Assembly (NCBI RefSeq): GCF_018986435.1
Contig: NZ_JAHMIN010000021.1
Coordinates: 75,467-115,957 of the forward strand
DNA: 40,491 nt
Direction of reading: 5' to 3'
Source: Hahella sp. HN01
GTDB lineage: Bacteria > Pseudomonadota > Gammaproteobacteria > Pseudomonadales > Oleiphilaceae
Position numbers and translations under genes: made by a program. Shown here one piece after another: positions 4,584 to 40,491 of this stretch (position 1 is the first letter of the stretch; every line of letters begins with the position of its first letter). The notes below the pieces were generated by a model, which saw only the letters and a list, made by a program, of their open reading frames with translations, was not told where the DNA came from and did not search any database.

Positions 4584-4670
4584 AAAAACAGACTTTGATT
4601 GCAGGTTTGCAGCTGCAGCCATCCTTGGCGGTCTGCTGCGCTCTAGGGTAGGGTTGAGCGCAGTCTCACT

Positions 4671-6975: not shown

Positions 6976-6984
6976 AAATAACTA

Positions 6985-7014: not shown

Positions 7015-7182
7015 GTAAAACAACACTGATGCAGACAGAGCGGAAATTTCGTTAGCCGGCGCAGCTTTACCGTTAATAAGCGGGAGAGAAAAGCGTTAGA
7101 GATCGACGTTGCCGTTCCTGACTACCGCGAGTCCATCGCAGAAGAAATGAACGCCGGGCGCAGTCCCGGGAAGGTGAAAACC

Positions 7183-8646: not shown

Positions 8647-8701
8647 CGGATTAATCAGACGCCGCTGTAACGGCGCGATAGCATTTAAAGGAGTCTCATC
8701 T

Positions 8702-8923: not shown

Positions 8924-9120
8924 CGTCCTTCTATTTGTACGCAAACGGCAGGTCCTGCCTGGGTCAGGCCCTGTCTCCCGCGGCTTATCGCCGCGCCGGC
9001 GCATTCATGCGCCCGCTTATTAACACGTCAATACCCTTGCCATGTTAATAACGACGCCTGAGCGCGTCTGTCCCAACACTCCCGATTCGAATTTATCCGG
9101 CCGACAAGAGGGAAGGCATT

Positions 9121-21108: not shown

Positions 21109-21271
21109 CCTGCTCAGTACAGGTCTACTGTTGTGTGCAAGGTCTCGTCCTCGAAGTCTCTAAACTGAAAAAACGTATATATGCGGTTTTCAAATGTCAC
21201 GCACATCTGGATGCTTCTGGTGATGCGGCTGCAATTGCAAATATAGAAATTTAAGTAGTAGGGAGAGCCAG

Positions 21272-22089: not shown

Positions 22090-24108
22090 CTATAAAGGGT
22101 ATTTCCCTGGTAGGAACCTTTTAATGACGGTGATCTGGAGAGAAACAACAGCGCCAAACCCAATTAACGACATTGCTGATAGATGAAGTTTAAGGTAAGG
22201 ATCAAAATCGACGGCCTTGGAGATTTGATAAAAGCATATGAGAATGCAAATGAATAGTATGTCGCTCGCATGTTTTCGTACAAACTCGAACTTACCGAAT
22301 AGTCGCCAAATTTCAAAGTACAATTGCATAATAAGTACGCCGACGACAGTGAATATTGCAGCCTGCGTTAAGCACAAAAGGGGTGGGATTCTCCATAGGC
22401 ATAGAAGGATAGCCGCAATAATCGAAATAAGGAGCACGGCAAGCACTTCATTAATAGCCTGAATGGGGCGCAATGATTGGTAGAATTGCTTTTCACTGAT
22501 ATCAAGATTTGAGTTAGTGAAAACCTCTCCCACTTGACCGAGAGTTGGCGACTTCCCTGGTTTTTGACGTTCAAGCTCATTGATGGCTGCGTCAATCATC
22601 CTCAAGTAGCTTCTGTCGATCAATTTACGTTCAGCGATATCGGCGGCAAACTCCCGCGCTGGTGTCGATTTATCGATACCAAACACTCGAAAGGGAAGGA
22701 GTGTATTCAGTACGTGGTCATACCAAGAGCGATAGTGTTGCTTTAACCTGTCTTTTCTCGTTAATGGAGCTTGCTTAGGAGGGGAGAGCTGCTTCTTATT
22801 GGTAAACAGAAACCACTCAAACTTGTCCAAATGGTGTTTGTAGTTGGAGAATTTCAAAAACGCATGGAGCTCCTTTGCGGTGAGGTCTTCTTTAGCCCCT
22901 TCGCGTCGCTTGGCGTAAGCTTGTATGATCTCGATAACTTCAGATAGAAGCGCCTGAACCTCAATATTGGAAGTCAAGTCGGGATTTTTTTCCAGCATTC
23001 CCTCCAGGTCTCTATCTATCGGCCTGGCAAAGTTTGCAAACAGGATAGTCTTTCCGCCGCGCAACGACAGGTAACGCCGAGCTAACGCGCCGTCGCTATC
23101 AAAACGCTCCATAAATTCCTGGTCTTTCTCAAGGTGCTCATAGTAGGACTGTAATGAGTCGCCTTTAAAGCCCTTTGGTGTATCAGGTTTTGCTGATTGT
23201 CCGGGCGCTGCTTGTTTTTGAATAGAGGGAGGCAATATGACTCTGTTTTCTTTCGTATCGTAGCGCCATAATTTGGCTTCTTCGTATGAAATGCGGTGCT
23301 GCGCATCCACATTTGACCGGAGTTCAGGCTTGTCTATCCACGCAAGCTGTTGGCCAGTTTGAAGGTCTCTCAGCTCCAACGCATCCTTGTAACATGCCAC
23401 AAAGCGCATCCCTTTGGTCGTTTGAACCTTTAATAGTCTAAATGGTCCATCGCTGTAGTAGATTGAGCTGTAACTCATATAGCGTTCGTTGGCCGCATGG
23501 AGAAGTTCTTTAACTTCCGTAAAAATGGAGCCGCTGCTTTTAATACGCTCCCAGTAATTGGGGATAGCATCTATCTGTTCGATCAGCCAATCGTTAAGTT
23601 GTTGCTGGCTACTGATAAATAGAGGCGGATTTTTCCAAAACAGTTCCTGTACCTTCTGAGATAGACGTTCACTGCAAATTAATTCGCACACCTTATTGTC
23701 CCAGACGATAGCGTGGATGGCGTCCTCAATTTTTTTATTATCAATTATGGCGCGGTCATGTGACGCGATATCACTCTGATTAAATTGCTCTAACTTTCTT
23801 TCACAGTGCTTTAAAGCCGCGAGCAACTCAGGCTCGTCTATATATTCGATGAACCTGATGAGATGCTTGATATTGAGGGTTGATCCATTGTATGGCGTGT
23901 AACAGGTATACGCGCCTTTAAACCCTTCACTAGCCATACCAAAGAGCATGGTCCCATATAGTTGAATCGGTAAGTCTGCAGGGCTAAAAAGATAGTTGTC
24001 GGTATAGTCTTCGGCTATGTAAAAGACCGCTTCATAAAAATAGGCGTCTTTTGAAGCTTTAAGCGATTCAAAGGTTGTTTCCAGCACTGGAACGGCGTTG
24101 AGTTTCAT
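22090..24108 (-). CDS. Large unrecognised protein with C-terminal membrane segments
   Basis: This 672-residue protein has a soluble part of about 560 residues and a C-terminal membrane part. The first 110 residues (YFYEAVFYIAEDY, LPIQLYGTMLFGMASEGFKG, LLAALKHCE) have a faint likeness to DUF4375/DMP19 domains. The middle is charged and helical (EAKLWRYDTKE, RRYLSLRGGK, ELHAFLKF). About four membrane helices follow from residue 570: VLAVLLISIIAAILLCLW, AAIFTVVGVLIMQLYF, ILFICILICFYQI and SLIGFGAVVSLQITVI. The large domain would therefore face the cytoplasm, tethered by the C-terminus. The ribosome site is AGGGA at long spacing. Function unknown; location between toxin-type genes suggests conflict or stress biology. 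Confidence 0.75.
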   Translation of the reverse strand: MKLNAVPVLETTFESLKASKDAYFYEAVFYIAEDYTDNYLFSPADLPIQLYGTMLFGMASEGFKGAYTCYTPYNGSTLNIKHLIRFIEYIDEPELLAALKHCERKLEQFNQSDIASHDRAIIDNKKIEDAIHAIVWDNKVCELICSERLSQKVQELFWKNPPLFISSQQQLNDWLIEQIDAIPNYWERIKSSGSIFTEVKELLHAANERYMSYSSIYYSDGPFRLLKVQTTKGMRFVACYKDALELRDLQTGQQLAWIDKPELRSNVDAQHRISYEEAKLWRYDTKENRVILPPSIQKQAAPGQSAKPDTPKGFKGDSLQSYYEHLEKDQEFMERFDSDGALARRYLSLRGGKTILFANFARPIDRDLEGMLEKNPDLTSNIEVQALLSEVIEIIQAYAKRREGAKEDLTAKELHAFLKFSNYKHHLDKFEWFLFTNKKQLSPPKQAPLTRKDRLKQHYRSWYDHVLNTLLPFRVFGIDKSTPAREFAADIAERKLIDRSYLRMIDAAINELERQKPGKSPTLGQVGEVFTNSNLDISEKQFYQSLRPIQAINEVLAVLLISIIAAILLCLWRIPPLLCLTQAAIFTVVGVLIMQLYFEIWRLFGKFEFVRKHASDILFICILICFYQISKAVDFDPYLKLHLSAMSLIGFGAVVSLQITVIKRFLPGKYPL

Positions 24109-24263
24109 TTACTTTACATCCCTAATTCGGCGGGCGGATTCTACACAAAACTTATTCCTTGTGTCTGCCCTGATTAAAGGGACGTGTCAGCTTTTTGGAT
24201 CTGTTTTGGACTTGGGCTTTCTGACTGTGGAAAGCAAACACTTAGATAGGGCGTGCTAACTAC

Positions 24264-24545
24264 ACTAGCCAATTACCCATTGAGGAATGGCACGGACTGA
24301 TCGGTGACGCGACCCTCGCAGATGCCTTCTGGATTGTCTGGTTCACAACGCCTACAAGATCAATCTCAGGGTCGAGTCCATGCGAAAACAGCAGGCAAAG
24401 TTGACGGGCGCCGAGACTTCGGAGTAAGAAGAGAAACCCCGCGTCGCTACGCTCCGATGGGTGGCAGCCTAGCTCCGCTCCGGGTGGCAGGCTTCACGTG
24501 GAATGGGTGGCAACCTTCAGCGGTTTGCGCACTTGTCCTTTGATG
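24264..24545 (+). mobile_element. IS21-family relic: frameshifted istB tail and right-end repeats
   Basis: Translation from 24264 gives TSQLPIEEWHGLIGDATLADAF, and after a one-base frameshift DCLVHNAYKINLRVESMRKQ and a TAA at 24425. This is the conserved C-terminus of the IS21 helper ATPase IstB (SQLP...IGD...LADA...LVHNA...ESMR). Just downstream GGGTGGCA recurs at 24459, 24482 and 24505, exactly 23 bases apart, as in the subterminal repeats of IS21 elements. No istA or left end is present in the window. The element is dead. The remainder of the 24109-24765 gap carries only this and the inverted repeat at 24678. Confidence 0.88.
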
Positions 24546-24677
24546 GGGTTTCAGAGCTTGCTAGTAAACACATTTCAAATATAGGCAAATAACTCAAGCC
24601 AACTACCGGTGGCGGCTTAGTCGGGCGCTAAATTCTCGAATATCATGAGCATATATAGTCTGAAAGATGTTATTAAT

Positions 24678-24753
24678 TGTAGAAGTTCAGATCTGACCTG
24701 ACAGACACCTCCTAAGAAAACGGTTACTGTCAGATCAGATCTGAACTTCTACA
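24678..24753. repeat. Near-perfect 27-base inverted repeat
   Basis: Arms 24678-24704 (TGTAGAAGTTCAGATCTGAC...) and 24727-24753 pair over 27 bases with a single C/T difference, which would be a G-U pair in RNA. The loop is 22 bases. Inside each arm is the palindrome CAGATCTG. It ends 13 bases after the stop codon of the minus-strand gene at 24766-25104. It has no T-run. It could be a terminator-like structure or the ends of a very small insertion. Confidence 0.9.
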
Positions 24754-24765
24754 GTTTAATGTCTA

Positions 24766-25104
24766 TCAAATCAGATGATCGAATCGACCCTTTTTAAAAG
24801 CGGATTCGACGTAATATATGGTTTTCTCATATATTCCCATTTGTATGTCATCGAACCCTTTTTCATGCTCCTCATTGAAGAGCGGGTGCTCATCATCATA
24901 GTACGGGAACATAAGCCTAGCTTTCTTCTTTTCAATAACCGCCAAATCAATTAGCGCCTCAGCTTCCTCGTCGCTAAGAAATATTGGTGGCTTAGTATCA
25001 AGGCCAGGAAATGCGTCTTTTAAAGCAACATAACCTTCCTCGTGCACAATTCGAGCAATATCTTCTATAAGCTCAATTGGCATCAATACTTCACGTTTAA
25101 TCAT
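24766..25104 (-). CDS. Unrecognised 112-residue partner of the Tse2-like protein, possible immunity
   Basis: Its ATG overlaps the stop codon of the upstream gene (ATGA, 25101-25104), so the two are translationally coupled. The protein is acidic in the middle (PIFLSDEEAEALIDLAVIEKK, FPYYDDEHPLFNEEHEKGFDD) and ends in a basic patch (FKKGRFDHLI). It has no signal or membrane segment. Short acidic proteins coupled to a toxin gene are often the neutralising partner. That role is inferred only from position and charge. A second in-frame Met at residue 8 is a possible start. Confidence 0.75.
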   Translation of the reverse strand: MIKREVLMPIELIEDIARIVHEEGYVALKDAFPGLDTKPPIFLSDEEAEALIDLAVIEKKKARLMFPYYDDEHPLFNEEHEKGFDDIQMGIYEKTIYYVESAFKKGRFDHLI

Positions 25105-25595
25105 GCATTTTCCACCTTTAATAGTGCGCCAGGATACCCCTCTATTATCCTCCCGCTTCTATCGATTTTAACATCGCAGGCCACCATTAAATCCGCTAGC
25201 TCGGTAAGTAACGCTGTGAGCTCTAGAACGGACATTGGCTTAGAAACGTTTAGCAGAGGGTGGTCTTTGTCCTTAATATTGAACACCAAATTCTTAGGAA
25301 TTTTACTTCCCTTTGGAAGCAACCAGACATGCCCCTCTAACGACTTTCTGGCCAGCGTATCAACGCTATCAGCAAAAGAGAGCCCCTTGATTGGGTTTGG
25401 GTACACCATCTCTAGCCCTGAATCTGGGTCAATACGCACGTCCAAATCTTTCCTTCTTGGACCATCTGCGCGAACCAATTTTGGAGACTTTGAGTTGCCG
25501 CCACCTCTAAATATTCCATGCAGGTTATTATATATTTTCCAAATCTCATCAGGCCCAATGGTCGTGAATTGACCTTTCTTTAGTCGGGTTGACAT
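25101..25595 (-). CDS. Tse2-like (ADP-ribosyltransferase-fold) toxin candidate
   Basis: The 164-residue protein has the motif order of Tse2-type domains: DLDVRIDPDSGLEMVYPNP, then GLSFADSVDTLARK, then GHVWLLPKGSKIPKNLVF, then HPLLNVSKPMSVLELTALL. The run of GLS..., VWxLPKGxxIPxxLV and a late xPMxxxEL segment is what I associate with the Tse2 family, toxins active in the cytoplasm and delivered by type VI secretion in Pseudomonas or encoded as toxin-antitoxin pairs. No secretion signal is seen. It lies in a three-gene minus-strand operon, after a small protein and overlapping the 112-residue partner. Catalytic residues cannot be assigned by eye. Confidence 0.6.
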   Translation of the reverse strand: MSTRLKKGQFTTIGPDEIWKIYNNLHGIFRGGGNSKSPKLVRADGPRRKDLDVRIDPDSGLEMVYPNPIKGLSFADSVDTLARKSLEGHVWLLPKGSKIPKNLVFNIKDKDHPLLNVSKPMSVLELTALLTELADLMVACDVKIDRSGRIIEGYPGALLKVENA

Positions 25596-26601: not shown

Positions 26602-26611
26602 ACTCCATCCA

Positions 26612-26638
26612 CCGTTCGCCCTGAGCCTGTCGAAGGGC
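26612..26638. repeat. Copy of the dispersed 27-base repeat
   Basis: A perfect core (CCGTTCGCCCTGAGCCTGTC plus GAAGGGC) lies between the symE stop and its probable terminator. The flank CTTCCCAGAGCGCTAATCC is shared with the 21823 and 18176 copies. Confidence 0.92.
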
Positions 26639-26663
26639 TTCCCAGAGCGCTAATCCAAAACCA

Positions 26664-26924
26664 CTAACCAGCCCCTGCGGTGAAAACGATCCTGCCCTCA
26701 CTGACGCTGACTTCAACTTCCGTGTCCACCCCAAACCCGGCTTGCTCCAGCCAATAACCCTTAATCAACATCCAGGGAACGGGTTTGAAACCGCCATAAT
26801 CATAACGGCTGGAGGAGAGGTGATAATCGTAATAACCCTTGCGGACCTTGAGACGGCGCTGGTGGGGAAGGGCAGATTTTCCTTTAGCCGAGCGACGCTC
26901 TGGCTTATCATGCGGCTTAGCCAT
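26664..26924 (-). CDS. symE: SymE-like toxin
   Basis: AGGAG sits six bases before the ATG. The 86-residue protein has a basic N-terminal half (KPERRSAKGKSALPHQRRLK) and a C-terminal SymE domain: PVPWMLIKGYWLEQAGFGVD, then TEVEVSVSEGRIVFTAG. SymE of E. coli is an SOS-induced toxin with an AbrB-like fold; it acts on nucleic acids and is held down by the antisense RNA SymR. An antisense RNA here would overlap the start region, but I cannot point to its promoter. Two shorter dead copies lie at 21875 and 18228. The gene sits near the DNA-modification operon, as symE does beside hsd genes in E. coli. Confidence 0.85.
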   Translation of the reverse strand: MAKPHDKPERRSAKGKSALPHQRRLKVRKGYYDYHLSSSRYDYGGFKPVPWMLIKGYWLEQAGFGVDTEVEVSVSEGRIVFTAGAG

Positions 26925-27143
26925 GATTGACTCCTACGTAGTCTTTTGTGGTTAGCTGCCTCTGGGTGTTGCGAGCACTCAGGGGTAGCGCTTCAATTTA
27001 GATATTTAAATCGAGATATTTAGTTATATTTTCCTTGGGAAACGGTCGGTTTCTAACGTGGGAAATACCCTCCTATCATTAACTGGAATGCTGGTTAAAT
27101 CAACAGTTTTTGTGATGTATATGCCTAATCATTAATATTGATA

Positions 27144-27545
27144 TTAAGCATTTTTACCAAGACCCGGTGAGCCACCTTGCACCAACTTAACCTTCTTACG
27201 GTTATATCCAGATATCTTATGAGTGGCTTCAATTTTCTGTTTTCTTTTCTGGATATAGTTTTTCGGGGGATTAGAGAGCTTTGGCTTCTTTGAAGCCATG
27301 CTACGGCCTCGGGAACGACGTTTTTTACGTGGCTTATCATGATGGCAAACATTTTCCGCAGGTCGAAGCTTTATATTTTGATCCATCAGGATAACGGGTT
27401 TAGAAGAGCCTAACCGATAGGCTTCACCTTCCGACAGGTTAATGTTATGTCTCATTTTGAAATGACGTGCGATGGCGAAAGAGTCCCTGGTGACATTTTC
27501 TCCACAATGGCTGCACTTTAACCAATGTTTCTTATGCATCGGCAT
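27144..27545 (-). CDS. Small basic zinc-finger protein
   Basis: GAGAGGAG lies seven bases before the ATG at 27545, so I start there rather than at the upstream frame start (27593). The 133-residue protein has one CxxC...HxxxxH finger near the N-terminus (CSHCGENVTRDSFAIARHFK followed by MRH). The rest is strongly basic (KPRKKRRSRGRSMASKKPK, YIQKRKQK, YNRKKVKLV). This composition fits a DNA- or RNA-binding protein. I do not recognise the family. It lies between symE and the three-gene defence-type operon on the same strand, with gaps of 219 and 338 bases, so it probably has its own promoter. Confidence 0.75.
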   Translation of the reverse strand: MPMHKKHWLKCSHCGENVTRDSFAIARHFKMRHNINLSEGEAYRLGSSKPVILMDQNIKLRPAENVCHHDKPRKKRRSRGRSMASKKPKLSNPPKNYIQKRKQKIEATHKISGYNRKKVKLVQGGSPGLGKNA

Positions 27546-27621
27546 AGCTTGGCTCCTCTCAATAGTGATGATTTCTTTTGAGTAGCCGCCCAAGTGTTTA
27601 TTATTATGAAGGTATTTTCAG

Positions 27622-27852
27622 CTAGGCCCTGACGCCAAACCCCAGGCCGCGCATAAGCCATTTTGTCGTATTAATATCTAATGAATCGGCTCTGCCTCTG
27701 AACCCGCGCATATCGCCAAAGGGTCTGAATTTCGCCACGTTATACACTTCGTCGTATGTGGTCGAAATGTGATCTGACTTCTTCGGGGCTATTGTTGTAA
27801 ATCCATAAGAGCGTTTTGTATGTAGGAACCCTGGACATTGCTTTTCCTCCTA
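27622..27852 (-). pseudogene. Possible broken gene between the zinc-finger and methylase genes
   Basis: AGGAGG followed six bases later by an ATG at 27838 opens a 32-codon frame that stops at 27740. In a different frame an open stretch of about 75 codons without an ATG runs to a TAG at 27622 and reads like real protein (YDEVYNVAKFRPFGDMRGF, then WLMRGLGFGVRA). A good start joined out of frame to a plausible body suggests a frameshifted gene, but I recognise no family, and a 32-residue peptide gene is the alternative. Confidence 0.4.
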
Positions 27853-27883
27853 TAAAATATGCGAGCGATTCAGTTTCCTTGGT

Positions 27884-30800
27884 CTATCCCAACCGATCCC
27901 AAGCCTCCAACACCAACCGCCGGGTGCGGTATTCGCCAAACGCTTTCATCTCATTCTTTTTCAGTACCCGAAATGTTTCGGAGGGGTAGTCTTCGCCCAT
28001 GACGTCTGCCGGGTCGAGGATGTAGCGTAGTTCGTCGCGGGTTAGGCCGTAGAGTTTGGCGTAGTAGGCGTCCAGTTCGCTTTTGAGGAGGTGGCGGCGT
28101 TCTGGGTCGAATTTGAAAGGAGGGCCGTTGTAACCGAGGTCTTCAGCGAACGGCTTTAGGTCGTATGCTGTATAAACGAGTTCTAATACACGGGGCCTTA
28201 TGTAGCCGATATCATCTCTATCATATCGATCTGGCGGCAGAGTCACGATCTGCTTTTTCATATTGTATTTGAGATGAGTGCCGCCAATTTTTTGCCTGGC
28301 TATGAAATCATGGGGTAGAGAGGTTTGATCAGCCAGTAGACAAGCAATCTTCTGTTTATCATCAACTTCTGGATACATCAGCAAAAATGTATCTCCCACG
28401 GCACTCAACGGAATCACTCCGGCAATCACAGTGCGCTCATTCGTAGCATTTGTAATATCTCGCCAACCCAGCAGGTATTTTGGCCGGCGGGCTTCCAGCA
28501 GTGGCCAGATGTATGCAAACGGGTCTTGTGAGCGGTTCAGATTGGCGACGAGGTGGTCAACTTCCTGATCGTTCAATATAGACTCATTCGCTAACTGGCG
28601 GGCGGCATTTATTGATGGCTCAAACGTGTCGGAAACCAAATCTTCATCACCACTGGACACTGTGCTTTGTAGAATATCTCTAACAAATATTCTGTCTGTT
28701 CCTTCTGGATGGGTTTCCATGTATGAGCCCGCAGCCCATAGTCTGAGAGTGTGATCCAGCTTTTCTGTGTCTTGCTTTTTAATCGCATCCAGGACGGCTT
28801 TTGGCGCTCGGGTTGTGCGGAGTGTGACTTCATTTTCCGCTACCCAGTAACGGGGCAGGTTGTGGTAGTTGGGGTTTTGTTTTTCCGCGAGGGCGCAGTC
28901 GCGACTTGTCTCGCCGTCTATCTCATAGGTTGCCCAGCGGTGGTCGTAGTGGTGGACCATTTTGGCTTCGTAGAGGGGGAGAAGAGGAGCGTCGCCGTTT
29001 TCATTTCTGTGCATACAGTCAATGAATAAACCGCTATCAGCCGACATATGGAACATGGCCTGGAACTTTATTCCCCAAGGGTTTATCTCTGGAGAATTAG
29101 CCCTCGCTTCCTTAATCAGGATCGGTGCATTTGAATAAATCTTCTTAGTTAGCTCCGCGTCTTTATTGGAGCGAAATACCGGGCAAGTATTTGTGTTTGG
29201 GTTTATTAAAGCGAAATCCTTGCTATCCAATGAGAAGCTTCGGTTTCCGTCGGCAAGCTGTGTGGTTTGAGTGAGATAGAAAGCCAGCGTAGCTTGCGGA
29301 ATATCCTTTCCAATAGTAAGTAGACAGAACTTCATACGAGAGTCTACGTCAGCAAATATTTTTTCCCGATTTTCAAAGTCAAAAACGCTAAACAAACGGT
29401 GGTCTTTATTCAGCCATGAGAAAAAGTGCTTGGTTGAATCATCGGTTACTATTCCCGTTGGACAAATAAATCCAACTCGACCACCTGACCTGATTGATTT
29501 TGCATTGTGTTCTGCAAAGGCCGCATAGAGGTTAACATCACCGCGGCCGGTTAATGGGTATCTTCCAGACAGACGAATAAAGGCGCTGGAGCCCTCCGCA
29601 TCCCGTTTGGCTACCTGAAATTCCTGATACAACCGTTGATCAGCTGGGGAGGCGCTCTCTGATAATGCATTAATTAAACGAGCGCGCGCAGCGGTATTGG
29701 GTGCGTTGGCGATATCCTCATTTCTCGCCGCAAAGAATTCTTTCTCCTGAAGTTTGATGCGCTCCCAAGGTACATTTCCCAGCATCACGTCAAAACCACA
29801 TTCGCCATCCTCTTTGCTCTCAAAGATGTGAGGAAACTTTAGAGGCCAATGGAAAAACTTATGCTGTTTCGCCAGTTTGCGTATTGATTGCACGGTTTCG
29901 TCAGAAACGCTTTCACCGTGGGCAAGTAAATGCAGGATGTCATTGGTAGGAACGGTGTTTTTGGTTTGCCTTGTTTTGGGGGCGAAGAAGGCGGCAGTGA
30001 AGGCATCCTCCTTCAGTCGCTCTTGGCAATACTCCTGTCTCTCTTTGAACGCGTCATAAGCCCGTTGTTTAGCCGATACTTCTTCCAGTGTTCTCTCATG
30101 CAGTCCTTCGATTTCATGAAAAGCCTGAACAATAGTTCTGAGCGATAGCGCAATTTTCTTTCCTGTTTTTTTATTCGCTTTGCGCAAGTCCGAACAGATA
30201 CCTTTGTCATCGCCAGTCAGCGCTTTGAAAGCGTCGTCAGGTATCCCATTTACTATCAGTGTGGGATCATGAATACCTACCAGTGAATTGCCGCACTTGA
30301 TGTGAGTATCAAGGAAACTTAAGGGTTTGCCAGGCTCCACCGATTCCAACCATAGGGCGATTTTGCAAAGTTCGATCGCCATATTGTTAATATCCACACC
30401 ATAGATACATTTTTGCACAACTTCGCGCATGGCTTGGCGATAGGTCAGGTTTGAATCCAAACGAACCAACTCGGAGGCTAAACGTTGAGCAGCCGAAATG
30501 AGACAGTGGCCGGAGCCGCATGCAGGGTCGCACACTGTGATCTTGAGGATTGCCGTTTTTGGATTTTCTGGACTTTCTTTTAAACGGTTTTCAATGACAG
30601 GATTAAGAGCGGACTTGATCAGTTCTTGCACCAGACTGTCTGGTGTGTAGTAGGTTCCCAATGACTTACGTGTGTTAGGGTCGTTAATAAAACCATACCG
30701 CCAGGCGCCATTCACCTTAATCTGCGGTGTCAGCTCTAACAGAGATTCATAAACAGAACCAAATTCGGTGGTATTAATATCCCGGTAATTAACCGGCCGT

Positions 30801-32092
30801 AACACGTCGTTTTGTACAAAAAAGCAAAGATTGAATAACGCTTCGTGCAGGTATTTGTTTTCAAGCTCGCACTGGTCCAAGTCAGGACACTGATCGAGCG
30901 CGAAAATACCGCCCAGCGCAGGCTGCGCCAGCAGAGGTTGCCCCACGGCAAAGCCTTTGAAAGTGACCAACAGTTGCCGCCATGCATCGCCGTATGAGTC
31001 CCGGCATGAGCGCAGGCGCGCTTGTTTCCTGAAATGGCTCACGCTGTACCATTTTTGATACAGCTCCCGGGCGCCTCGGTAGTCCTGTTGTTGATAAAAC
31101 TGCGGCAACAGGGCGATGTCTCTGTCTTCCGCAACCAGCAGAAACAGAAACCGATACGCCAGGCGTTGAATCTGATTATGGAAGCCTTTTTCGTCCAGTT
31201 CCCCGTTGGTGAATAGATCACGTAAACGTTGATTTTTGGGATGGGATAGAAAGCCCGTTCCCAGAGACTCCATGGCATGCTCCACGCCATAGCGAAGAGA
31301 CTCTTTCGCCCTTTCACCTTCTTCTTTGCCTTTCTCGCGCCACTTCTCCAACCAGCAACGCTCCACGGAAAGAACGGAGACATTTTTTGATGTCAGTGGT
31401 CTGGTGCGAGACTGGTGCAGCAAAAGCCAGACGATAGTGAACTCTGCATAGTCTTCTTCTTCGAATATGCGGGCAAAGTCGACTTCGATATATGCAGGGC
31501 GGGTGATCGCTGGATTATCGCGCAGTAAGCGAAGATAGAGCCCATTGGCCACGATCGCCCACAGGCATTGCTCTTCTGCATTCAGGTACTCCTGCGCCAA
31601 GGCAGTCGGGGAACGCTTCTTATCGCCTTTTTTGTCTTTTTGGCCAAACTCCGCATCGGATTTATCCAGGTCCTGGTCCGCACCGCATAACACAAAGGGA
31701 AGGGTGTGCTCGTTAGCGAAATGAGTGATGGGGAAATAACGTTCTCCAATGGTTATCGGGTCGGTTGGCTCCGGGCGATAGCAGAAGACGTGCTGCAGCA
31801 GGGGAAGCAACCATTCTTCAAGGGCTAACCTTTTCTGGCTTTCGTGATCAGCGTAATCCTGACGCTGGGCCAGTTCCCGATAGTTCTGCCACAAGGATTG
31901 TGCAATACGCCAATAGCGCCCCAGTTCTTCATTGAACTTCAGGCCTTTGGGAATGCCGTATTCCGCCTCGGATCGCCCTGGCAGTGCGTTGCGTCCGGTC
32001 TCTCGCAAGCGGGTTAAAAGCTCCGTACTCAATAACCCGCCAATGACATGTGTTGATTCAAAGGGCTGCTCGATCTGCCTTTTTAACGCCAT
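27884..32092 (-). CDS. N6-adenine DNA methyltransferase, DrmMI/Eco57I-like
   Basis: AGGAGG sits seven bases before the ATG at 32092; an ATG at 32098 directly abuts it. The 1402-residue protein has a long N-terminal part, then [15 protein letters not shown] leading into SAM motif [14 protein letters not shown] near residue 522. The target-base motif IV reads GNVPWERI near 773, where most N6-adenine enzymes have NPPW/NPPF. It probably recognises a specific DNA sequence through its C-terminal region and marks host DNA. There is no clear nuclease motif, so it is unlikely to be a stand-alone type IIG enzyme. It is the last gene of the operon, 72 bases after the SNF2 helicase gene, and corresponds to DrmMI of class 1 DISARM. 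Confidence 0.88.
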
Positions 32093-32164
32093 GTTCATCC
32101 CTCCTACTGCGATTGACCGAAGTCGACTTCAGATAACTTGAGGTGAGGGCCTGTATCCGGGGGC

Positions 32165-35008
32165 TTAGAAATATTTTTGGTCCGGCTTCAGCACGTACAC
32201 GCCCAACACATCCACAGGAAATTGTGGTTTTACTTCATAGCTGCCTTTGGCTTGCGCCGCCTCGCGGGTGCGGCGATGATCCGCTAATAACTGTTTGGCC
32301 CGCGCTTCCGCCAGGCTTCTAAACATTGGCTGCTTTTCTTCCAATTGGTTGAGTTCCTCAGCCAATTCGCGCTCTTTAGCCTCTTTACACATATTCTTGC
32401 TCACGGCCGCCTGCATCAGTTTTAAGGCCTGATCTTTCGGCATGACTGAGGCTTGGTTATCAGCATTGATGGCGATGGCCAGCGCTTCCTCCGCCAGCAG
32501 GTCGCACTCATGCAAGGTTCTTTTGAGAATCAACCGTGATCGGATGCGTAGCAAATAGATGACTGTGCGCGTTTCTACGTCCTTCGTGTACAGAGCGCCA
32601 GCTCTTGCGATCAGGTCTGTGTCTTCGCCGCTCATCGCCAGTTCCGCAAGGTAGTCCGCCAAGTGTGAGACCAGAGGGTGGGTGCGATGTATAAACTCCG
32701 CTTTGAGGGCGCAGGGATAGTAGAAATCGATGTGCTTTAGAGTGAGTAAGCCGGCCGCATCCAGGCGGTCACGAAGGCCGGGGTGCTTTTCGCCGAAATG
32801 GGTTAATGGGGCTTGATAGCCGCCATGCTTCAGACTTCTCAACGGTGCGCCCAGGCGCTCGCAGGCGTTTAAAACAAAACGCTTTACGTCTTCCTCTGTT
32901 CCCAGCACGGCAAATGCCTTTTCCCATTCCGGCAGGACGTCTTCCGGTTTTAACCGGTTTTGCGCAAACAAGGTGCGGTGTCGTCTGGCTTTTTCGCGAG
33001 CCGATTCCCATTTGGCGTCTAACGCCTGGAGGTCAGCGTCCTGGGCAAACAGGTCGTCCATGCCTTTACTGCCGATATAGTTGCCGCTGCGCAGGAGTAC
33101 GGCTTTCATCAGGGCTTGTTCTGCGCGGTCGCCTTCTTCGGGCATGGGAACGGTAACGCCAAGGGCTTTGCGAATACTTTCCGCTTTTCTGAGGATGACC
33201 TGCAGGACAGCCCCGTCCACAGGATTTTCCTCGCCGTAATACATGAGCGCCTTAACGGTTTTAGCCTTTTGGCCGAAGCGATCAACCCGGCCTTCACGCT
33301 GTTCATGACGGGTCGGGTTCCAGCTCAAGTCATAATGGATAACGGCATTGAACTGCTCTTGCAGGTTCACGCCCTCTGATAAGCAATCTGTTGCGACCAG
33401 TAATGGCGCTTTGTCGCTGTCCTTAAGTTGCTCAATGCGTTCAAGTCGCTCTGTCGGCGTTAAATCGCCAGTGACATGAATGACCTCCCGTTGGGGAAAA
33501 GCGGAGTTCAGTTCGTCCGCCAGGTATTCCGCTGTGGCGATATAACGGCAGAAGATGACGGGGTTATAACCCTCATCCAACACGGGTTTGATAATCTGTT
33601 TTAAGGTTTGCAGTTTAGGGTCGTTGCCGCTTTTCAGATGTTTGGCGCGCTCAATTAAACGCTTCAGTATTTCAACATCTTCTTCCTGGGCTGCGCCGGG
33701 CTCTACATCGTCCAACGTCAGGTTGTCATCAGACCCGTCCAGCACGCTAATGGCGCCTTGCTCGTTCAAGGCGTCAATATGGCATCGTTGGTCTTCCTCG
33801 TCAGGCGACTTGCCTTCGGGGGAGAGAGTGTTGTCGAGACGCGTATTGAGCGCGCGTATCGCCGCTTGAGGCGATGAAGAGATACAGCGGAGGAGCGCCA
33901 GCGCCGCCCACCAGTTCATTCGAGCCTTGAATGTTCCTTCCGACTCTCTACTGACCAGCTCGCGCGCGTATTCAAGCACATCATGGAAAATGGCGTTCCA
34001 TTCTCCCGTCAGTTTGTAAGTCGCTTCACCGGTCAGTCTGTCAGGGAACAGGTTGCCTTCTTTCCACTCACCAATATCCTGCCGGCGCCGTTGTACAAAA
34101 TGGTTGGCCAGCGCCTGGCGAAGAGGATGCGCCGCATTGTCTATGGTTTTCAGATCGACGAACTCAGGCTTCAACAATGAGAGCAGGTTATAAAACGCTT
34201 CTTCGTCGCCACTGTGCGGCGTCGCTGTCAGCAACACCATGTGTCTGGTTTCCTTCGCTGCGAGGTCTTTTAATAGTCCATAACGTAAATGAGGACCCAT
34301 ACCAGTTCTGGCGCAGGTATGAGCTTCATCCACAATGACGAACTCGGGGCAATGAAGCAGGAAGGCGTCGCGGCGGGTTTTATTCTTGATGTAATCCAGG
34401 GACACAATCGTAAAAGGATGCTCTGTAAATATTGAACGGTCCTGTAGTAGACCTCTCTCCAGGCGTGCCGCGGTGGTAGAGCGCACGATAGTGGCGTCCA
34501 GATGGAAACGTTCTTTCAGCTCTTCATGCCATTGCTCGCACAAATGGGGCGGACATAGCACGGTAAAACGGTTTATTTCCGCACGGTCCAGCATTTCACG
34601 GACAATCAGGCTCGCCTCGATGGTTTTGCCAACACCTACATCATCCGCGATTAACAGACGAATGGTTTCCAGTTTTAGCGCCATCATAAGAGGAACTAAC
34701 TGATAAGCGCGGGGCTCTATTGCGATGGAGCCAAAGCTGCGGAATGGCCCTGCGCCAGCCCGTAACTTCAGCATTAACGCATCGCGCAACAGCAGGCCTG
34801 CGGCTTGTGTGCCAGAGTGCGCCACCTGTGGAGGCGGAAAGGAGGCGGAGTGTATGGGCTCCAACTCTGGAAGCAGCGCCGTGATGGCGTCATCACCGCC
34901 TCCGAGAGGGCGTAAATGGAGTAACCTTGCGTCGCTCTGCGGCAGTACTATCCACTCTCTGCCTCTCGCCGTGACGACAGATCCGGGACTGAAAGTTTGC
35001 TCGTTCAT
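32165..35008 (-). CDS. SNF2-type helicase, DrmD-like
   Basis: The 947-residue protein has a full SNF2/RapA-type ATPase. Walker A is ADDVGVGKT (Lys128), the Walker B box is DEAH at 227-230, and motif III is LLTATPHSG. The C-terminal RecA lobe shows REGRVDRFGQKAKT near residue 572. The last third is helical and charged. Its ATG overlaps the stop of the upstream helicase gene (ATGA), so translation is coupled and no strong ribosome site is needed. Such proteins move along double-stranded DNA. In class 1 DISARM the SNF2 protein DrmD accompanies the adenine methylase; the same pairing is seen here. Confidence 0.92.
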   Translation of the reverse strand: MNEQTFSPGSVVTARGREWIVLPQSDARLLHLRPLGGGDDAITALLPELEPIHSASFPPPQVAHSGTQAAGLLLRDALMLKLRAGAGPFRSFGSIAIEPRAYQLVPLMMALKLETIRLLIADDVGVGKTIEASLIVREMLDRAEINRFTVLCPPHLCEQWHEELKERFHLDATIVRSTTAARLERGLLQDRSIFTEHPFTIVSLDYIKNKTRRDAFLLHCPEFVIVDEAHTCARTGMGPHLRYGLLKDLAAKETRHMVLLTATPHSGDEEAFYNLLSLLKPEFVDLKTIDNAAHPLRQALANHFVQRRRQDIGEWKEGNLFPDRLTGEATYKLTGEWNAIFHDVLEYARELVSRESEGTFKARMNWWAALALLRCISSSPQAAIRALNTRLDNTLSPEGKSPDEEDQRCHIDALNEQGAISVLDGSDDNLTLDDVEPGAAQEEDVEILKRLIERAKHLKSGNDPKLQTLKQIIKPVLDEGYNPVIFCRYIATAEYLADELNSAFPQREVIHVTGDLTPTERLERIEQLKDSDKAPLLVATDCLSEGVNLQEQFNAVIHYDLSWNPTRHEQREGRVDRFGQKAKTVKALMYYGEENPVDGAVLQVILRKAESIRKALGVTVPMPEEGDRAEQALMKAVLLRSGNYIGSKGMDDLFAQDADLQALDAKWESAREKARRHRTLFAQNRLKPEDVLPEWEKAFAVLGTEEDVKRFVLNACERLGAPLRSLKHGGYQAPLTHFGEKHPGLRDRLDAAGLLTLKHIDFYYPCALKAEFIHRTHPLVSHLADYLAELAMSGEDTDLIARAGALYTKDVETRTVIYLLRIRSRLILKRTLHECDLLAEEALAIAINADNQASVMPKDQALKLMQAAVSKNMCKEAKERELAEELNQLEEKQPMFRSLAEARAKQLLADHRRTREAAQAKGSYEVKPQFPVDVLGVYVLKPDQKYF

Positions 35009-38000
35009 TTCGTCGCCGCCCCAAAAATATCTGGGTACTGAGCGAGGATAGATGGCCAGCGCTCACGTTCTTTAGGGAAGCGGATCACGGTTAATCCATG
35101 CGCGCGAAGCCGCCTCGAAAGCTCTTCGTCCAGCTTTTGCCGTTGCGGCATTTCATGGTGAGGACCGTCTATGTAAATGGCGGCGTTGTGATCGCTGTAT
35201 ACAAAGTCCGGTCGGGTTCTGAACTTTTCTATGACAACCTGCGCCTGATCCGGCAACCGGTGGCCGTTTGTCTTGAGATGATCCAGAAAGGCGCTTTCCA
35301 ACGAGCTGCCGGAAAGCTGTTTTAAATAGTCTTCCTGCTCAGTGTAGGGTTTTGAACCTGCGCCGACTTGTAGTTCAGAGTGGACCAGCTTGAGAAGCGC
35401 GTTGACCGCTTCGCTGTTTTTGCGGTCAATCAGCTTGTGATCAATCTGGTTGTAGTAACTGAGCAGGCAGCGATAGCAACCGGCGTCACAGTCGGAATTG
35501 ATATCTTCAGGCAAGCTGGCCCAGCCGTCGTTTGTCGAGTAATGACAGATTCTCAGTGCGCGCTCTGCAATGCTCGCAAAGGCGTATTTGTTGCTGGTCA
35601 GCCGGGTTAGGACGCCTGCGCCGCCTTCTGACGCCTCATAAAACAGTATGGTATTCCTGTCATCCCGGCTGGGGAGCGGTTCAACCACCAGCTCCGCTTC
35701 TTCAATCTGGAACTCTTCTTCAATGCCGCGTTTCAAGGCGTATTGCAGTGTGGCCAAGGCATGTTCATCAAGTTTAAGCTCCGCCTCCGGCCTCAGTATC
35801 AGAATGTTGCGTCGGTCTTCCACATAGGGCGTGATACGTTCTACATGGTTTTCTCCTTGCGCCAGATCATCGCTGTTTTCCTGGGCGGCTTGTTCGTCGG
35901 CGCTCCATTGGCCGGAAACGGCGTCGATGTTGAAACCGTAGATGGATGGATTTTTTCTACGCCGCCATCCCAGGTTCAGCCGCCAAACCGTGGCGGTGGG
36001 CGCATACTGGACCGTAAACAGGCGGCTCCCCTGGCTGAGTAGCTCGCCTTGGGTGACGCGCAGGCGACCGTCAGTCTGGTGAAACTGGACGGTGGTCTGC
36101 ATTTCGTAACCTTGCCTTTGTCGCTCTTCTTCGTCGCAGGTGATGCGGTAGGCTCTCTTGGTGCTGACGTTGTCGATACGGTAAAGATTGGACACACGCT
36201 TTCCTCCCTCAATGGGAGCGCCGCAGGCGTTACAAAGTTCATCCTCCAGTTGAGTATGAAAATGTCCATATCCGCAGGCTGGGCAGAGTCTGGCTTCTTC
36301 TTTGACTAAACCGGGCTGATCCAGTGATTGCTCTGGACGCACGCCCAAGATGACTTTTTTGACCCGATATTGACTGCCTTCATGATAAATAAGACTTAAA
36401 GGTCCGAATTCGGAAATGGCCAGAAAGCGCGGTCTGGCGAGAAAACTATCGCGACCGATGTTGCCGCGTCGGCCTTGAATGTAGGCCAGCAAAGGCAGGC
36501 GAGGGAAGTTATAACCAGGCAAGAAGCCCTGACTGGCGAGATAGCGATAGGTGGAGAAGTCCGAGCTTGTGTCGCTATGCGCATCAAGCAATAAATCCAT
36601 TTGCGTTCGCGCTTCGCCGTAACGTTGGCCAGCCGCTTTTCGCTCTGTCTCACTGGCCGCTGGATTGGTATTGATCAGGTGCGCTTTCTGCATTTGATCC
36701 TGAGTTGAGGCGTACAGCTCCCTCCAACGATCCAAGGAATCGCAAAACTCTCTGTAAGCGGCATTCACCTTGCGCTTCATCCACTGGCTGATGGCTTCCT
36801 CTAAAGAATGCTCTTCACTAAGCCAGGCGCCTTGTGCGACTGCTATATCGCCAACCAGCATTCTCATAATATCCAAACCCCGTTCTATGGTTCGGCTGCG
36901 AACTTTATCGCTGTTCATCTGCATGTCGAACTCATCCAAAACCGGCATGTTCGAGGGCTGATTCATGTCGAGCATCAGATTGACGGTCTTAGGTAATACC
37001 TTTTTGGTTTCACTCAGCCAGATGGCATGTAAGTGGCTGGCGATAAGGTCTTCGTTCGCCAGGTCCAGGGTGGGCGGGCTGACATGACCGTGCACCATGC
37101 GGGCGGGATCGGAAAAGAAGTACTGATCATGGGGACTTAATGCGGCGCAGTAGGTGATGACCAAGGCAGGCTGCCCGGAACGACCCGCTCTGCCGGAGCG
37201 CTGTGCGTAATTGGCTGGCGTCGGAGGGACATTGCGTAAATAGACGGAGTTCAGGGACGCGATATCCACGCCAAGCTCCATAGTAGGGGAGCAAAATAAT
37301 GTTTTTAAAGTTGCTTCGCGGAACTGTTTTTCCCGCTCCTCCCGTTTATCTATGCTGACCTGGGCGGTATGTTCACGAGCTTCAAGCTCAAAGAATGTCC
37401 TGTTTCCAGCAACTAAAAATTCAGCGATGTTTTGATATAGGTTTTTGAAGTACTCGTTTTCTGAGCTGTAAGGGGTCGTCGGATCAGTTGAGGATACGCC
37501 TGCGCTGGGCATCCATTGTATAAACTCCCCAACAAGTTGATAGCCTTGTATTCCTCTCTCTTCATTTACTTCTTCGACCAGACCATAACTTTGAAGCACT
37601 CCGATTAAGCTTAAGATGAGATCAGGGTAATTGGCGTCATTTATTCTGGGAAGAAGTGAAAGATCGTCGCCCCATATGTTGGACCTTTTTAAGGTTTGGC
37701 CCAATGAGGATCGGCTTGAGGCAGTGATAAGATTGTAGCTGTTCCTGCCTTTGGGTTTGCTTGTCAGAATCATGGTGCAACTTGGTTGAAGCTGCTCTTC
37801 TTCCGTGAAAGCCCAGGGCTCTATAAGGTGTGCGTAGCTTTGAGACTTGAACTGCTCTTGCTGATAAGCATCCAGGAACCTGCTTTTGATACACAGACCT
37901 CGGCGCATTGTATCTAGAACGGCTTTGAGGGCTTTAAATCTGCTTTCTACCGAAACATTCTGCAGCTCAGGAAATTTTAAATTTTCCCACTTGCGTTGGT

Positions 38001-40242
38001 CCTGACTGAGATCAGCGAGCCCTTCGTATTCGATCTTTAATAATCCCAGTTGCTCCAGGTTAGGATTATTGAAGCGCCAGCCTCTTCTTAAATCAAAATA
38101 GAGCCGATAGGAGAGCACATTCCTTAACGCTTCCTCCGCTTTCCTCAAGCCTGGCCCATCAATGGCTGGGTTGGCGAGATACTGTGTCCTTTCCTCAACT
38201 CGGTCGAACCCGAGACATTGGAATACTGATTGTGACAAAAGACTGTCCGTGAGGTAGCCGTTTGGCGCGCTTTTAACCGCCGCAAGTAGGCTGGATCGGA
38301 GTAACAGTATCTGAATAAAGTCGTTGTAATGGCCTGCTTGCAGTGAAGCATCCTGTCGGTTATCGGTAAAGCCCAGCAGCTTTTTGGCGTCGTCCTTCAA
38401 CTCTGTATCGCGCTCAAGCAAGTAGCGTAATGCAGAGATAGTTAGCACCGTTGTTGCGGAAGAGCGGCCTTCGCCACTGAGAGAGGTGAGTCGGCTCGCT
38501 TCTCGGCTTTTCCCGCGGTGTACAAAGCCGCAGTTAAGACAGAATCTGAAACTACCAGGGATGAACCATCCTCTTTCGCCCTGAATATCGATGGTTCCAT
38601 CAGGCTTTACAAAGGTTTCGGTTGGTTTGAATTTTTTGTAGCTGCTGCGAAGACGGTAATCGCCGTTTTTTTCCTCTAACCAGTGTTCCGGATAACTGCT
38701 TTCGTAATTGCCATCGTCCCATCTACGCTGTGGATCGAGCATGAAATAGCCCCAATCACTGGATTCCTCATCGTTATTCTTGTCATCAATACCCCGGGGC
38801 TTTAACGCGCCTTCGCCGCTTTCATTCTCATACCAAACAGGATGGTAATCCTGTCCACATTGGCGGCAGAAATAGAGGGTGTAGAACAATTTTTCCCGAT
38901 TGCTGCCAGGCAGAAACTGCTGGCCGCTAAGATCCACCACTCTTTTTCCTTCCGGCTCCAATGTGGAATAAGCATGGCTGGGCCCAGAAATAAACTGATG
39001 CAGTCTAAATGCAAAAACGGGCTTTCCTGACGGACTCTTGCAGCGATATGCCGCCAGCAAGAACCGACGGAGATAATCCTGACATGATTGCCGGTCTAAA
39101 CCCGAGTCAGCGGAAAGTCGCTCCGCCGCCCATGCTAGATTCTGGGGTTTGGCGCGAACCCAGCGGTCCTCTTCCCACACCAAACCCAGAGTAGACTCAA
39201 CCCAGACTGAGATGGGATGTGCGCAGAATGCATGGAAATCAGAAGCAGAAGGAATGGGTTGTTGCAGGGCGCGGGCCAGTGTTTCGGGAGTTGGGTCAAT
39301 GTCTTGTGTCGTTATACGCTGCAGCGTTTCGGTCACAATATTTTCCGGCTTAACTTGCGCGCCGAACAATTTGCTGGCCACGGTCGCCACGGCTGCGTTC
39401 TTCGCCGCCAGCGACCCTTCACTGGCCATAGTGGCGGAGGTGCCTATACATAACACTTCTGGGTTTAGCGCCTCGCGAACGCGACGCACCAACATTGCTA
39501 CGTCCGCTCCTTGCCGCCCTCGATAGGTATGGAGTTCATCCAGTACGAGGAAGCGTAAACCTTTCGCAGACTGGATTACGAGGCGATCAATCTCGTCCTG
39601 CCGCGTCATAAGCAGTTCAAGCATCATGAAATTGGTCAGGATAATATCCGGTGGATTGGCCGACATAGCGTGGCGGGCTTCTTGGGACTCCTGACCGGTA
39701 TATCTTCCATAGGTCACAGGCTTGTTGTCGCCATAGTGGCCAAGAAACTTTTCCAACTCTTCTAGCTGTGAGTTCACCAAGGCGTTCATGGGATAAATGA
39801 TGATCGCTTTGATGGAAGGGCGGGAGTTATGTTCTTTCTCTTTCAGTATCGCGTCGACAATCGGCAAGATATAGCTAAGTGACTTCCCAGAGCCTGTCCC
39901 CGTCGTTAACACATAACTTTGTCTGCTTTGCGCCAAGCCGATGGCGGCCTGCTGATGCGTATGCAGGCCCGCAGGAATGCCTTGGGGATTTGCATCGCTG
40001 CGGTTAAAACGGAAAATATTCGCGCACTCTTTATGCAAAATCCCTTTTGCTGCTAACGCTTCAACATTGTCGCCGGGAACGAATGAAGGATTAATCTGAA
40101 TCAGCGGCGCAGGCCAATAGTGACCTTTTTCGTATCGTTCAGAGATAAAACTTTGGACATCAGCGGCGCTGATTTTGGCGAAGCTTCGGCTGAAACTTTC
40201 GTAGTCGGCGATTACGGCATCGCGATATTCGAATACGTCCAT
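35005..40242 (-). CDS. Giant helicase with zinc sites, DUF1998-type module and C-terminal nuclease
   Basis: The 1745-residue protein is the first gene of the operon. Walker A TGTGSGKS (Lys120), DELH at 235-238 and SATMAS form the first helicase lobe. CRQCG near 457 and CLNCG near 567 form a likely zinc site. The second lobe carries QRSGRAGR near 1020. A second zinc pair, CPAC...CNACG, lies near 1320-1340. The DUF1998-type cysteine cluster CDAGCYRCLLSYYNQ is near 1585. The last 90 residues read as a Vsr/DUF559-like nuclease (RPDFVYSDHNAAIYIDGPHH near 1676, then TVIRFPKERER). DISARM splits helicase (DrmA), DUF1998 (DrmB) and a PLD nuclease (DrmC); here these activities appear joined, with a different nuclease. 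Confidence 0.9.
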   Translation of the reverse strand: MDVFEYRDAVIADYESFSRSFAKISAADVQSFISERYEKGHYWPAPLIQINPSFVPGDNVEALAAKGILHKECANIFRFNRSDANPQGIPAGLHTHQQAAIGLAQSRQSYVLTTGTGSGKSLSYILPIVDAILKEKEHNSRPSIKAIIIYPMNALVNSQLEELEKFLGHYGDNKPVTYGRYTGQESQEARHAMSANPPDIILTNFMMLELLMTRQDEIDRLVIQSAKGLRFLVLDELHTYRGRQGADVAMLVRRVREALNPEVLCIGTSATMASEGSLAAKNAAVATVASKLFGAQVKPENIVTETLQRITTQDIDPTPETLARALQQPIPSASDFHAFCAHPISVWVESTLGLVWEEDRWVRAKPQNLAWAAERLSADSGLDRQSCQDYLRRFLLAAYRCKSPSGKPVFAFRLHQFISGPSHAYSTLEPEGKRVVDLSGQQFLPGSNREKLFYTLYFCRQCGQDYHPVWYENESGEGALKPRGIDDKNNDEESSDWGYFMLDPQRRWDDGNYESSYPEHWLEEKNGDYRLRSSYKKFKPTETFVKPDGTIDIQGERGWFIPGSFRFCLNCGFVHRGKSREASRLTSLSGEGRSSATTVLTISALRYLLERDTELKDDAKKLLGFTDNRQDASLQAGHYNDFIQILLLRSSLLAAVKSAPNGYLTDSLLSQSVFQCLGFDRVEERTQYLANPAIDGPGLRKAEEALRNVLSYRLYFDLRRGWRFNNPNLEQLGLLKIEYEGLADLSQDQRKWENLKFPELQNVSVESRFKALKAVLDTMRRGLCIKSRFLDAYQQEQFKSQSYAHLIEPWAFTEEEQLQPSCTMILTSKPKGRNSYNLITASSRSSLGQTLKRSNIWGDDLSLLPRINDANYPDLILSLIGVLQSYGLVEEVNEERGIQGYQLVGEFIQWMPSAGVSSTDPTTPYSSENEYFKNLYQNIAEFLVAGNRTFFELEAREHTAQVSIDKREEREKQFREATLKTLFCSPTMELGVDIASLNSVYLRNVPPTPANYAQRSGRAGRSGQPALVITYCAALSPHDQYFFSDPARMVHGHVSPPTLDLANEDLIASHLHAIWLSETKKVLPKTVNLMLDMNQPSNMPVLDEFDMQMNSDKVRSRTIERGLDIMRMLVGDIAVAQGAWLSEEHSLEEAISQWMKRKVNAAYREFCDSLDRWRELYASTQDQMQKAHLINTNPAASETERKAAGQRYGEARTQMDLLLDAHSDTSSDFSTYRYLASQGFLPGYNFPRLPLLAYIQGRRGNIGRDSFLARPRFLAISEFGPLSLIYHEGSQYRVKKVILGVRPEQSLDQPGLVKEEARLCPACGYGHFHTQLEDELCNACGAPIEGGKRVSNLYRIDNVSTKRAYRITCDEEERQRQGYEMQTTVQFHQTDGRLRVTQGELLSQGSRLFTVQYAPTATVWRLNLGWRRRKNPSIYGFNIDAVSGQWSADEQAAQENSDDLAQGENHVERITPYVEDRRNILILRPEAELKLDEHALATLQYALKRGIEEEFQIEEAELVVEPLPSRDDRNTILFYEASEGGAGVLTRLTSNKYAFASIAERALRICHYSTNDGWASLPEDINSDCDAGCYRCLLSYYNQIDHKLIDRKNSEAVNALLKLVHSELQVGAGSKPYTEQEDYLKQLSGSSLESAFLDHLKTNGHRLPDQAQVVIEKFRTRPDFVYSDHNAAIYIDGPHHEMPQRQKLDEELSRRLRAHGLTVIRFPKERERWPSILAQYPDIFGAATK

Positions 40243-40446
40243 CGTTCAGGCTTCCTGAAGATTGTTAGTGCAGGAATTTCTGTGAAATCAAGCAGTAAAC
40301 AAATCACATCCTAATGCTCCATATCTTATGGAGGCGCCTGAGTCGTCCTTGGTTGTTGGTTGAAATTTGATCAGGTGAAAAGAAGTATAGACAAGGACTT
40401 CAAAAATGCAGGGAAAATTGTTGATGAATTACTTGCGTTTCGAAGA

Positions 40447-40491
40447 GCCCTTCGACAGGCTCAGGGCGAACGGGGCGAACGGGGCGAACGG
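40447..40491. repeat. Dispersed repeat with a tandem 9-base extension (runs off the right edge)
   Basis: A perfect core copy (GCCCTTCGACAGGCTCAGGG then CGAACGG) is followed by two more copies of its last nine bases, so GGCGAACGG occurs three times in a row and may continue beyond the window. It lies about 200 bases upstream of the giant helicase gene. The 40243-40446 stretch otherwise holds only a possible promoter for that gene. Confidence 0.85.

Follow-up and report, generated by a model that had tools for sequence, protein, structure and literature searches.

What kind of system is encoded by the three large minus-strand open reading frames that occupy positions 27884–40242 of the window, the whole 40,491-nucleotide stretch of Hahella sp. 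HN01 DNA analysed here? A preliminary description had read them, with the open reading frames correctly described, as three coupled genes forming a compact DISARM-like operon, and had allowed that they might be a distinct three-gene antiphage type or match a type already named. The coupling is evident: the first two genes share 4 bp (ATGA), and gene 3 is preceded by a 66-bp gap with an AGGAGG-like site. The same trio is adjacent in other genomes, with gene 1 61–98% identical in the nearest of them, which takes the grouping far beyond chance. The window stops with its contig at 40491. This end, 249 bp upstream of gene 1, falls within a short tandem repeat. An Rfam scan gave no match, and a promoter scan returned five sites against a mean of 12.5 in shuffled sequences, that is, fewer than in the shuffles.

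The domains claimed at the outset are recognized by Pfam: DEAD (4.5e-25), Helicase_C (6e-12) and MZB/DUF1998 (8.4e-11) in gene 1, SNF2-rel_dom (7.6e-17) and Helicase_C (1.7e-19) in gene 2, and Eco57I (9.5e-19) and N6_Mtase (5.7e-10) in gene 3 (Table 1). A PLD nuclease, said to be absent, found no match among the 23 window ORFs scanned against Pfam. The helicase, methylase and nuclease motifs are all present save for a proline-to-valine change in methylase motif IV. Two CxxC motifs lie between RecA1 and RecA2 and one zinc pair further on, in addition to the DUF1998 cysteines. Genes 1 and 2 have dN/dS values of 0.05–0.07, indicative of purifying selection.

Table 1. Coordinates, in the window, of the operon, its domains and motifs, and the block that contains it.
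Feature	Position	Strand	Description or basis
Gene 1	35005..40242	-	YprA-family SF2 helicase, DUF1998/MZB, C-terminal Vsr/DUF559-like nuclease domain, 1745 aa; ArmC counterpart (Type II naming)
Gene 2	32165..35008	-	BrxHII/RapA-like SNF2 helicase, 947 aa; ArmA counterpart
Gene 3	27884..32098	-	PglX/Eco57I-like N6-adenine DNA methylase, 1404 aa; ArmB counterpart
RecA1 (DEAD, aa 96-274; Walker A TGTGSGKS at aa 114; DELH)	39421..39957	-	Pfam and motifs
RecA2 (Helicase_C, aa 941-1023; QRSGRAGR at aa 1014)	37174..37422	-	Pfam and motifs
MZB/DUF1998 zinc domain (aa 1499-1593, CxxxCxxC at 1585)	35464..35748	-	Pfam and motif
Vsr/DUF559-like PD-(D/E)xK nuclease domain (aa 1634-1745; SSLE, RPDF, DGPHH)	35008..35343	-	Alignment, weak Pfam match
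Methylase motif IV, GNVPW for GNPPW (aa 774-778)	29765..29779	-	Motif reading, comparison with other loci
Methylase core (aa 450-1065), diverged allele in congener G002	28904..30751	-	Identity, core tree, substitution rates
Accessory block, missing from congener G001, whose matching flanks enclose about 2.6 kb of other DNA	27112..40203	.	Flank comparison

We conclude that the operon is very probably an ARMADA Type I system. In the available text of the preprint that describes this class (Bell et al., September 2025; PMC12458937), Type I consists of a YprA helicase with a C-terminal Vsr-type nuclease, termed predicted active, followed by a BrxHII-like helicase and a PglX-like methylase. The window has the same three genes in the same order, a YprA protein with DUF1998 and a Vsr-type end, a BrxHII/RapA-like helicase and a PglX-like methylase; the C-terminal nuclease has intact motifs and a weak family score, and cysteine motifs correspond to the Type I zinc features (DUF1998, the OB-region zinc insertion and CxxC pairs in the beta-barrel insertion). 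A tree was built from 30 homologues of gene 1: all 19 rows that have the operon group together (support 76/87), the six rows labelled Type II form a separate group (100/100), and the Type I YprA proteins stand apart from those of Type II and Druantia. The window lies inside Type I, in a five-row set supported at 100/100 and, together with Gilvimarinus and Marinobacter rows, at 100/99. Rows were labelled by their own operon, the preprint accessions (e.g. WP_108720193.1) not being among them; the Type II label follows from the operon in L030 and L051, whereas L040 was so labelled for a methylase lying upstream, L027 for a helicase lying downstream, and L039 and L042 solely by the length of the protein. 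Long branches, L026, L041, L054 and DrmA among them, are unsurely placed, and L053 (no gene 1 match in the scan), L005, L009, L029 and L037 are among the loci outside the tree. The gene set, gene order, zinc motifs, fused nuclease and tree position thus match a type that already has a name, rather than a new three-gene type, and the operon is an ordinary member of it save for methylase motif IV, the one difference noticed.

Relatives of gene 1 lie within the operon in Pseudomonadota, Actinomycetota, Deinococcota, Campylobacterota, Chloroflexota and Thermodesulfobacteriota. Small genes are inserted in the operons of L018 and L022, and those of L019 and L029 have a broken methylase. The YprA gene follows a pair of the gene 2/gene 3 type in two cyanobacteria, a Thermus and a haloarchaeon, an order reported, in the preprint text available, for many archaea and cyanobacteria (PMC12458937). 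A DUF2326/SMC-like gene often follows the Type I methylase (L002 at 22766–24766, L006, L021, L025, L031, L124–L126, L128, L130–L132, L134, L137 and L148); no homologue of it was found in the window.

The fused nuclease domain of gene 1 scores just below the DUF559 cut-off (20.3 against 20.6 bits; E 0.00053). Across 14 aligned Type I nuclease domains, all chosen because their motifs are intact, the E, D, D and H residues do not vary; Pfam finds DUF559 in 12 of these 14 and Vsr in three (E up to 1). Against the PDB, the nuclease profile gave weak matches, from E 0.041 for the best to 5, with Vsr entries at 4–5. An AlphaFold model of aa 1085–1745 has a pLDDT of 57 and lends weak support; Foldseek with this low-confidence model returned nothing at E 0.001 or better, the top PDB match being MrfA (6znp; E 0.008, prob 1.00, TM 0.20). 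Two long helices of the model, at about aa 1147–1219 and of low to middling confidence, might correspond to the long helical extension that Type I has after RecA2. The model of aa 285–1085, the part in which the BrxA-like and MarR-like insertions of Type I would be expected, has a pLDDT of 47 and was set aside.

We then compared the state of this domain with the genes that follow the methylase in 45 Type I loci selected for a readable gene 1 end, leaving out G005, L105, L132, L138 and L140, in which that end could not be read within a single locus. Judged by a motif pattern, 27 loci have an intact fused nuclease and 18 a decayed one (L150 being borderline). An HNH gene, defined as a homologue of three seed HNH proteins at E 1e-10 (Pfam HNH_2 in all four scanned), lies downstream of the methylase in 15 of the 18 decayed loci (L018, L021, L029, L031, L123, L124, L126–L128, L141, L144–L146, L148 and L151) and in none of the 27 intact ones. 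Among loci read for at least 3.5 kb past the methylase, the figures are 15/17 and 0/20 (Fisher 1.5e-8, a test blind to kinship); for seven of the 27 intact loci the stretch read was shorter than this, and four intact loci have another gene order. The HNH gene is at most 3.3 kb past the methylase in 13 of the 15 loci and at 5.4 and 8.2 kb in the other two. The decayed loci in which none was found are L022 (3.0 kb read), L147 (an IS21 element after the methylase) and L150. Two intact loci count against a clean rule: L026 has a weak match to one HNH seed (7e-8) on the other strand, and in L028 a 97-aa gene annotated as HNH, outside the seed family by search, precedes the operon. On the tree, decay needs four changes and HNH three, with only two independent pairs on starred branches; by independent pairs the association is not significant, and since the independent events are so few (two or three), kinship alone could yield the pattern. 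Where the fused nuclease is lost, an HNH gene mostly follows downstream, and on this comparison this suggests that a nuclease is needed. The window itself has an intact fused nuclease and no HNH gene of the seed family. We found no account of such a trade in the literature searched, and in the available main text of PMC12458937 HNH occurs in one reference title only.

Methylase motif IV reads NVPW in the window and in congener G005, and NAPW in congener G002, these two also carrying the operon, whereas the other Type I loci read outside the genus have NPPW or NPPY. All 53 other distinct loci with a gene 3 match of at least 250 bits and a readable motif, near-copies being counted once, have NPPW (51) or NPPY (2), four of them being only 25–31% identical to gene 3; 32 pieces in which the motif was not readable, including the broken methylase of L132, were left out. 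With the limit lowered to 90 bits, the motif is canonical in 58/58 other loci. We found no mention of the change in the available text of PMC12458937 or in the literature searched.

Against the PDB, phmmer with gene 3 returned nothing at E 0.001. The gene 3 product of G005 is 94% identical to that of the window, and that of G002 is 98% identical over aa 1–445 but 61% over aa 450–1065, with synonymous differences per site rising from 0.17 (aa 1–445) to 0.79 (aa 640–1065). This drop in identity and jump in synonymous differences show that the core of the G002 gene has been exchanged. The methylase cores of the three congeners join as one group at 100/100, so that N[VA]PW may go back to one ancestral change. 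Between the window and G005, dN/dS in gene 3 is 0.03 for aa 1–445, 0.17 for aa 450–640, 0.10 for aa 640–1065 and 0.27 for aa 1066–1404. The value of 0.10 indicates that the methylase gene is not decaying, and the faster evolution of aa 1066–1404 would fit a target-recognition region. Activity is known from RNA adenine dimethylases that have N(I/L)P(Y/F), and methylase activity may persist despite NVPW.

Gene 1 was matched almost full-length in 4 of 58 genomes among relatives, and 33 further relatives' genomes match it in shorter helicase stretches only; gene 2 was found at E 1e-100 in 7 of 369 genomes of the class, and the methylase at E 1e-60 in 8 of 390 genomes of the order and at E 1e-80 in 13 of 398 genomes of the phylum, the window's own genome being included in each of these counts. 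Plasmid records matching gene 1 number 258, with 70 matching at least 80% of it. Within the genus, three of seven genomes carry the methylase. In congener G001, in which the operon is absent, DNA matching window positions 26609–27111 and 40204–40491 lies about 2.6 kb apart, which identifies the intervening DNA of the window as an accessory block. At the same site, G005 also holds, by best PADLOC model, Orf5 (2.5e-163; HEC-06 2e-65), MkoA (3.7e-50) and a NERD+UvrD protein, C3a187 (5e-30; GajB 1e-12); these DUF262-type (Orf5/HEC-06), MkoA-like and UvrD-like genes, at 4102–9649 of G005 locus L033, make up a small defence island on the stretch from the operon to the shared flank. In the window, the ten further genes scanned had no PADLOC match save a weak one to VakA (E 0.00024), and the window thus shows no larger defence island.

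Several other genes of the window were seen in passing. A 149-aa ORF with a zinc-finger-like pattern lies just downstream of the methylase (27144–27593), its sole homologue among the loci scanned being in G002. A 672-aa protein at 22090–24108 has no Pfam or PADLOC match, and the stretch is 95% identical in G001. At 24766–25595, a gene with a Tse2-like ADP-ribosyltransferase toxin domain (25101–25595) is followed by a 112-aa ORF overlapping its end by 4 bp, a possible toxin–antitoxin pair. A SUFU-domain protein adjoins an AAA_33 kinase-like protein at 20494–21754, and a siderophore-like cluster with a TonB receptor, an enterochelin esterase-like protein and a 2881-aa NRPS with a thioesterase occupies 4671–17766.

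Several named systems share parts with the operon. The preliminary description had supposed that DrmA, DrmB and a nuclease were fused in one chain, which would make this a compact or derived Class 1 DISARM; its likeness to DISARM holds for the parts and fails for membership. Class 1 DISARM also has a DrmD-like helicase, a DrmMI-like methylase, a YprA-family helicase and a DUF1998 function, and the DrmD model of NCBIfam matches gene 2 at 329 bits, the DrmMI model of PADLOC gene 3 at 4e-62. Gene 2, however, falls short of the curated DrmD cut-off of 610 bits, and gene 1 is far nearer DruE than DrmA (PADLOC DruE3 7e-98 against DrmA 1e-14). In the tree, the sole DrmA row is a distant outgroup and gene 1 groups with proteins of the same operon. 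In DISARM, DrmA and DrmB are separate genes and the nuclease is of the PLD type, according to the preprint text available (PMC12458937), and the helicase is of another branch, whereas here the nuclease is Vsr/DUF559-like and the window has neither separate drmA and drmB nor a PLD nuclease drmC; we consider a DISARM derivative very unlikely. The PADLOC comparison (release 2023) proposed with the earlier reading gave parts labelled DruE, DpdE and DrmMI among the matches listed. The best model for gene 2 is the 'DpdE' model PDLC02853, which fits the ARMADA helicase over almost its whole length (682 bits); since gene 2 stays below the NCBIfam DpdE cut-off (210 against 500 bits), PDLC02853 may be a mislabelled ARMADA model. 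A Dpd system was rejected on that score, on the NCBIfam DpdJ score of gene 1 (90 against 800) and because no 7-deazaguanine gene was found among the 23 window ORFs scanned. Hma consists of the HmaA helicase, a methylase and an ATPase. The suggested Hma-like match fails, as gene 2 scores only 209 bits with HmaA and the operon has no separate ATPase gene. A Druantia variant with gene 1 as DruE would account for the best PADLOC models of gene 1 (DruE3 and DruE1), which make DruE its nearest helicase family, and for the PDB entries related to it by sequence (9tu7 and 9wae). Yet a DruE-like protein of G002 scores 615 (DruE1) and 568 (DruE3) against 316 and 327 for gene 1, which is in the range of three YprA proteins of Type II-like loci (291–337). 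Druantia III pairs DruE with DruH (PMC13192584), whereas the partners of gene 1 are a RapA-like helicase and a methylase, and no DruH is among the matches listed for the 13 window proteins scanned with PADLOC. With these other partner genes, and with the tree and the scores setting gene 1 apart, a Druantia variant is extremely unlikely. ARMADA Type II has three homologous proteins, but in the order helicase, methylase, YprA, with a longer YprA (2113–2267 aa in the six labelled rows) and a fourth gene for a GajB-like helicase; it was rejected because no such gene was seen adjoining the window operon and the helicase and methylase genes do not lie ahead of YprA.

Two further alternatives concern function rather than kinship. 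A DNA-repair operon like MrfAB would fit the YprA/MrfA family of gene 1 and the top PDB match of its C-terminal model, but the patchy presence in the genus (3/7 genomes), the exchange of the methylase core, a congener's defence genes next to the operon and the tree position make this barely credible. The operon could instead be a restriction-modification-like barrier whose natural targets are plasmids or other incoming DNA more than phages, as the exchanged core alleles of the methylase and the many plasmid-borne relatives would allow; set against the protection from phages reported for Type II in the available text (PMC12458937), we think this rather unlikely, though worth keeping in mind. 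A chromosomal ARMADA Type I antiphage operon is the best explanation of the locus and a likely one, and a defence role, likewise likely, is supported.

According to the preprint text available, Type II ARMADA gives E. coli a protection in which the cells do not die and for which all four of its genes are needed; protection is abolished by Walker mutations in ArmA and ArmC, by the ArmD Walker A mutation and by an ArmB NPPW mutation, and partly lost with the ArmD Walker B and ArmB SAM-site (G605A) mutations (PMC12458937). The phage tests in that text are of Type II, and we found none of Type I there or in the literature searched. For the Hahella operon, we propose that gene 3 would methylate adenine at a strain-specific DNA site and so mark host DNA, as its family and the core allele exchange suggest. 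Gene 2, a RapA/SNF2-type translocase, and gene 1, a YprA-type helicase, would then engage invading DNA that lacks the mark, probably at replication or processing intermediates that contain single-stranded DNA, and cutting would fall to the C-terminal nuclease domain of gene 1, a step to which the fusion, the conservation of active-site residues and the biochemistry of the related DruE point. Survival of the cell would be expected, though it has been shown only in E. coli with Type II (Bell et al.). The scheme as a whole, in which methylation marks self and the helicase-nuclease destroys unmarked phage DNA, could equally well prove right or wrong: the decayed nuclease motifs in 18 of 45 relatives, the weak recognition of the domain and the non-canonical motif IV count against it, and the partial effect of Type II G605A, in the text available, may mean that methylation is not central. 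The methylase of this genus might instead act chiefly as a strain-specific reader of DNA, directing the helicase-nuclease to its target, while methylating weakly or not at all. Such a role would explain why motif IV is non-canonical while purifying selection is kept and the core exchanged, and fits the Type II SAM-site mutant, in which protection is partly kept. Against it stands the loss of protection in the N971A motif mutant of Type II, reported in the same text, and we regard the reader role as distinctly unlikely.

In sum, a prediction made from sequence only was borne out, and the operon takes its place in a class named in 2025. How ARMADA discriminates self from non-self, and which nuclease does the cutting, can be approached through the comparison at the same site, the altered motif IV, the core exchange in the methylase and the trade of a fused Vsr-like domain for an HNH gene.
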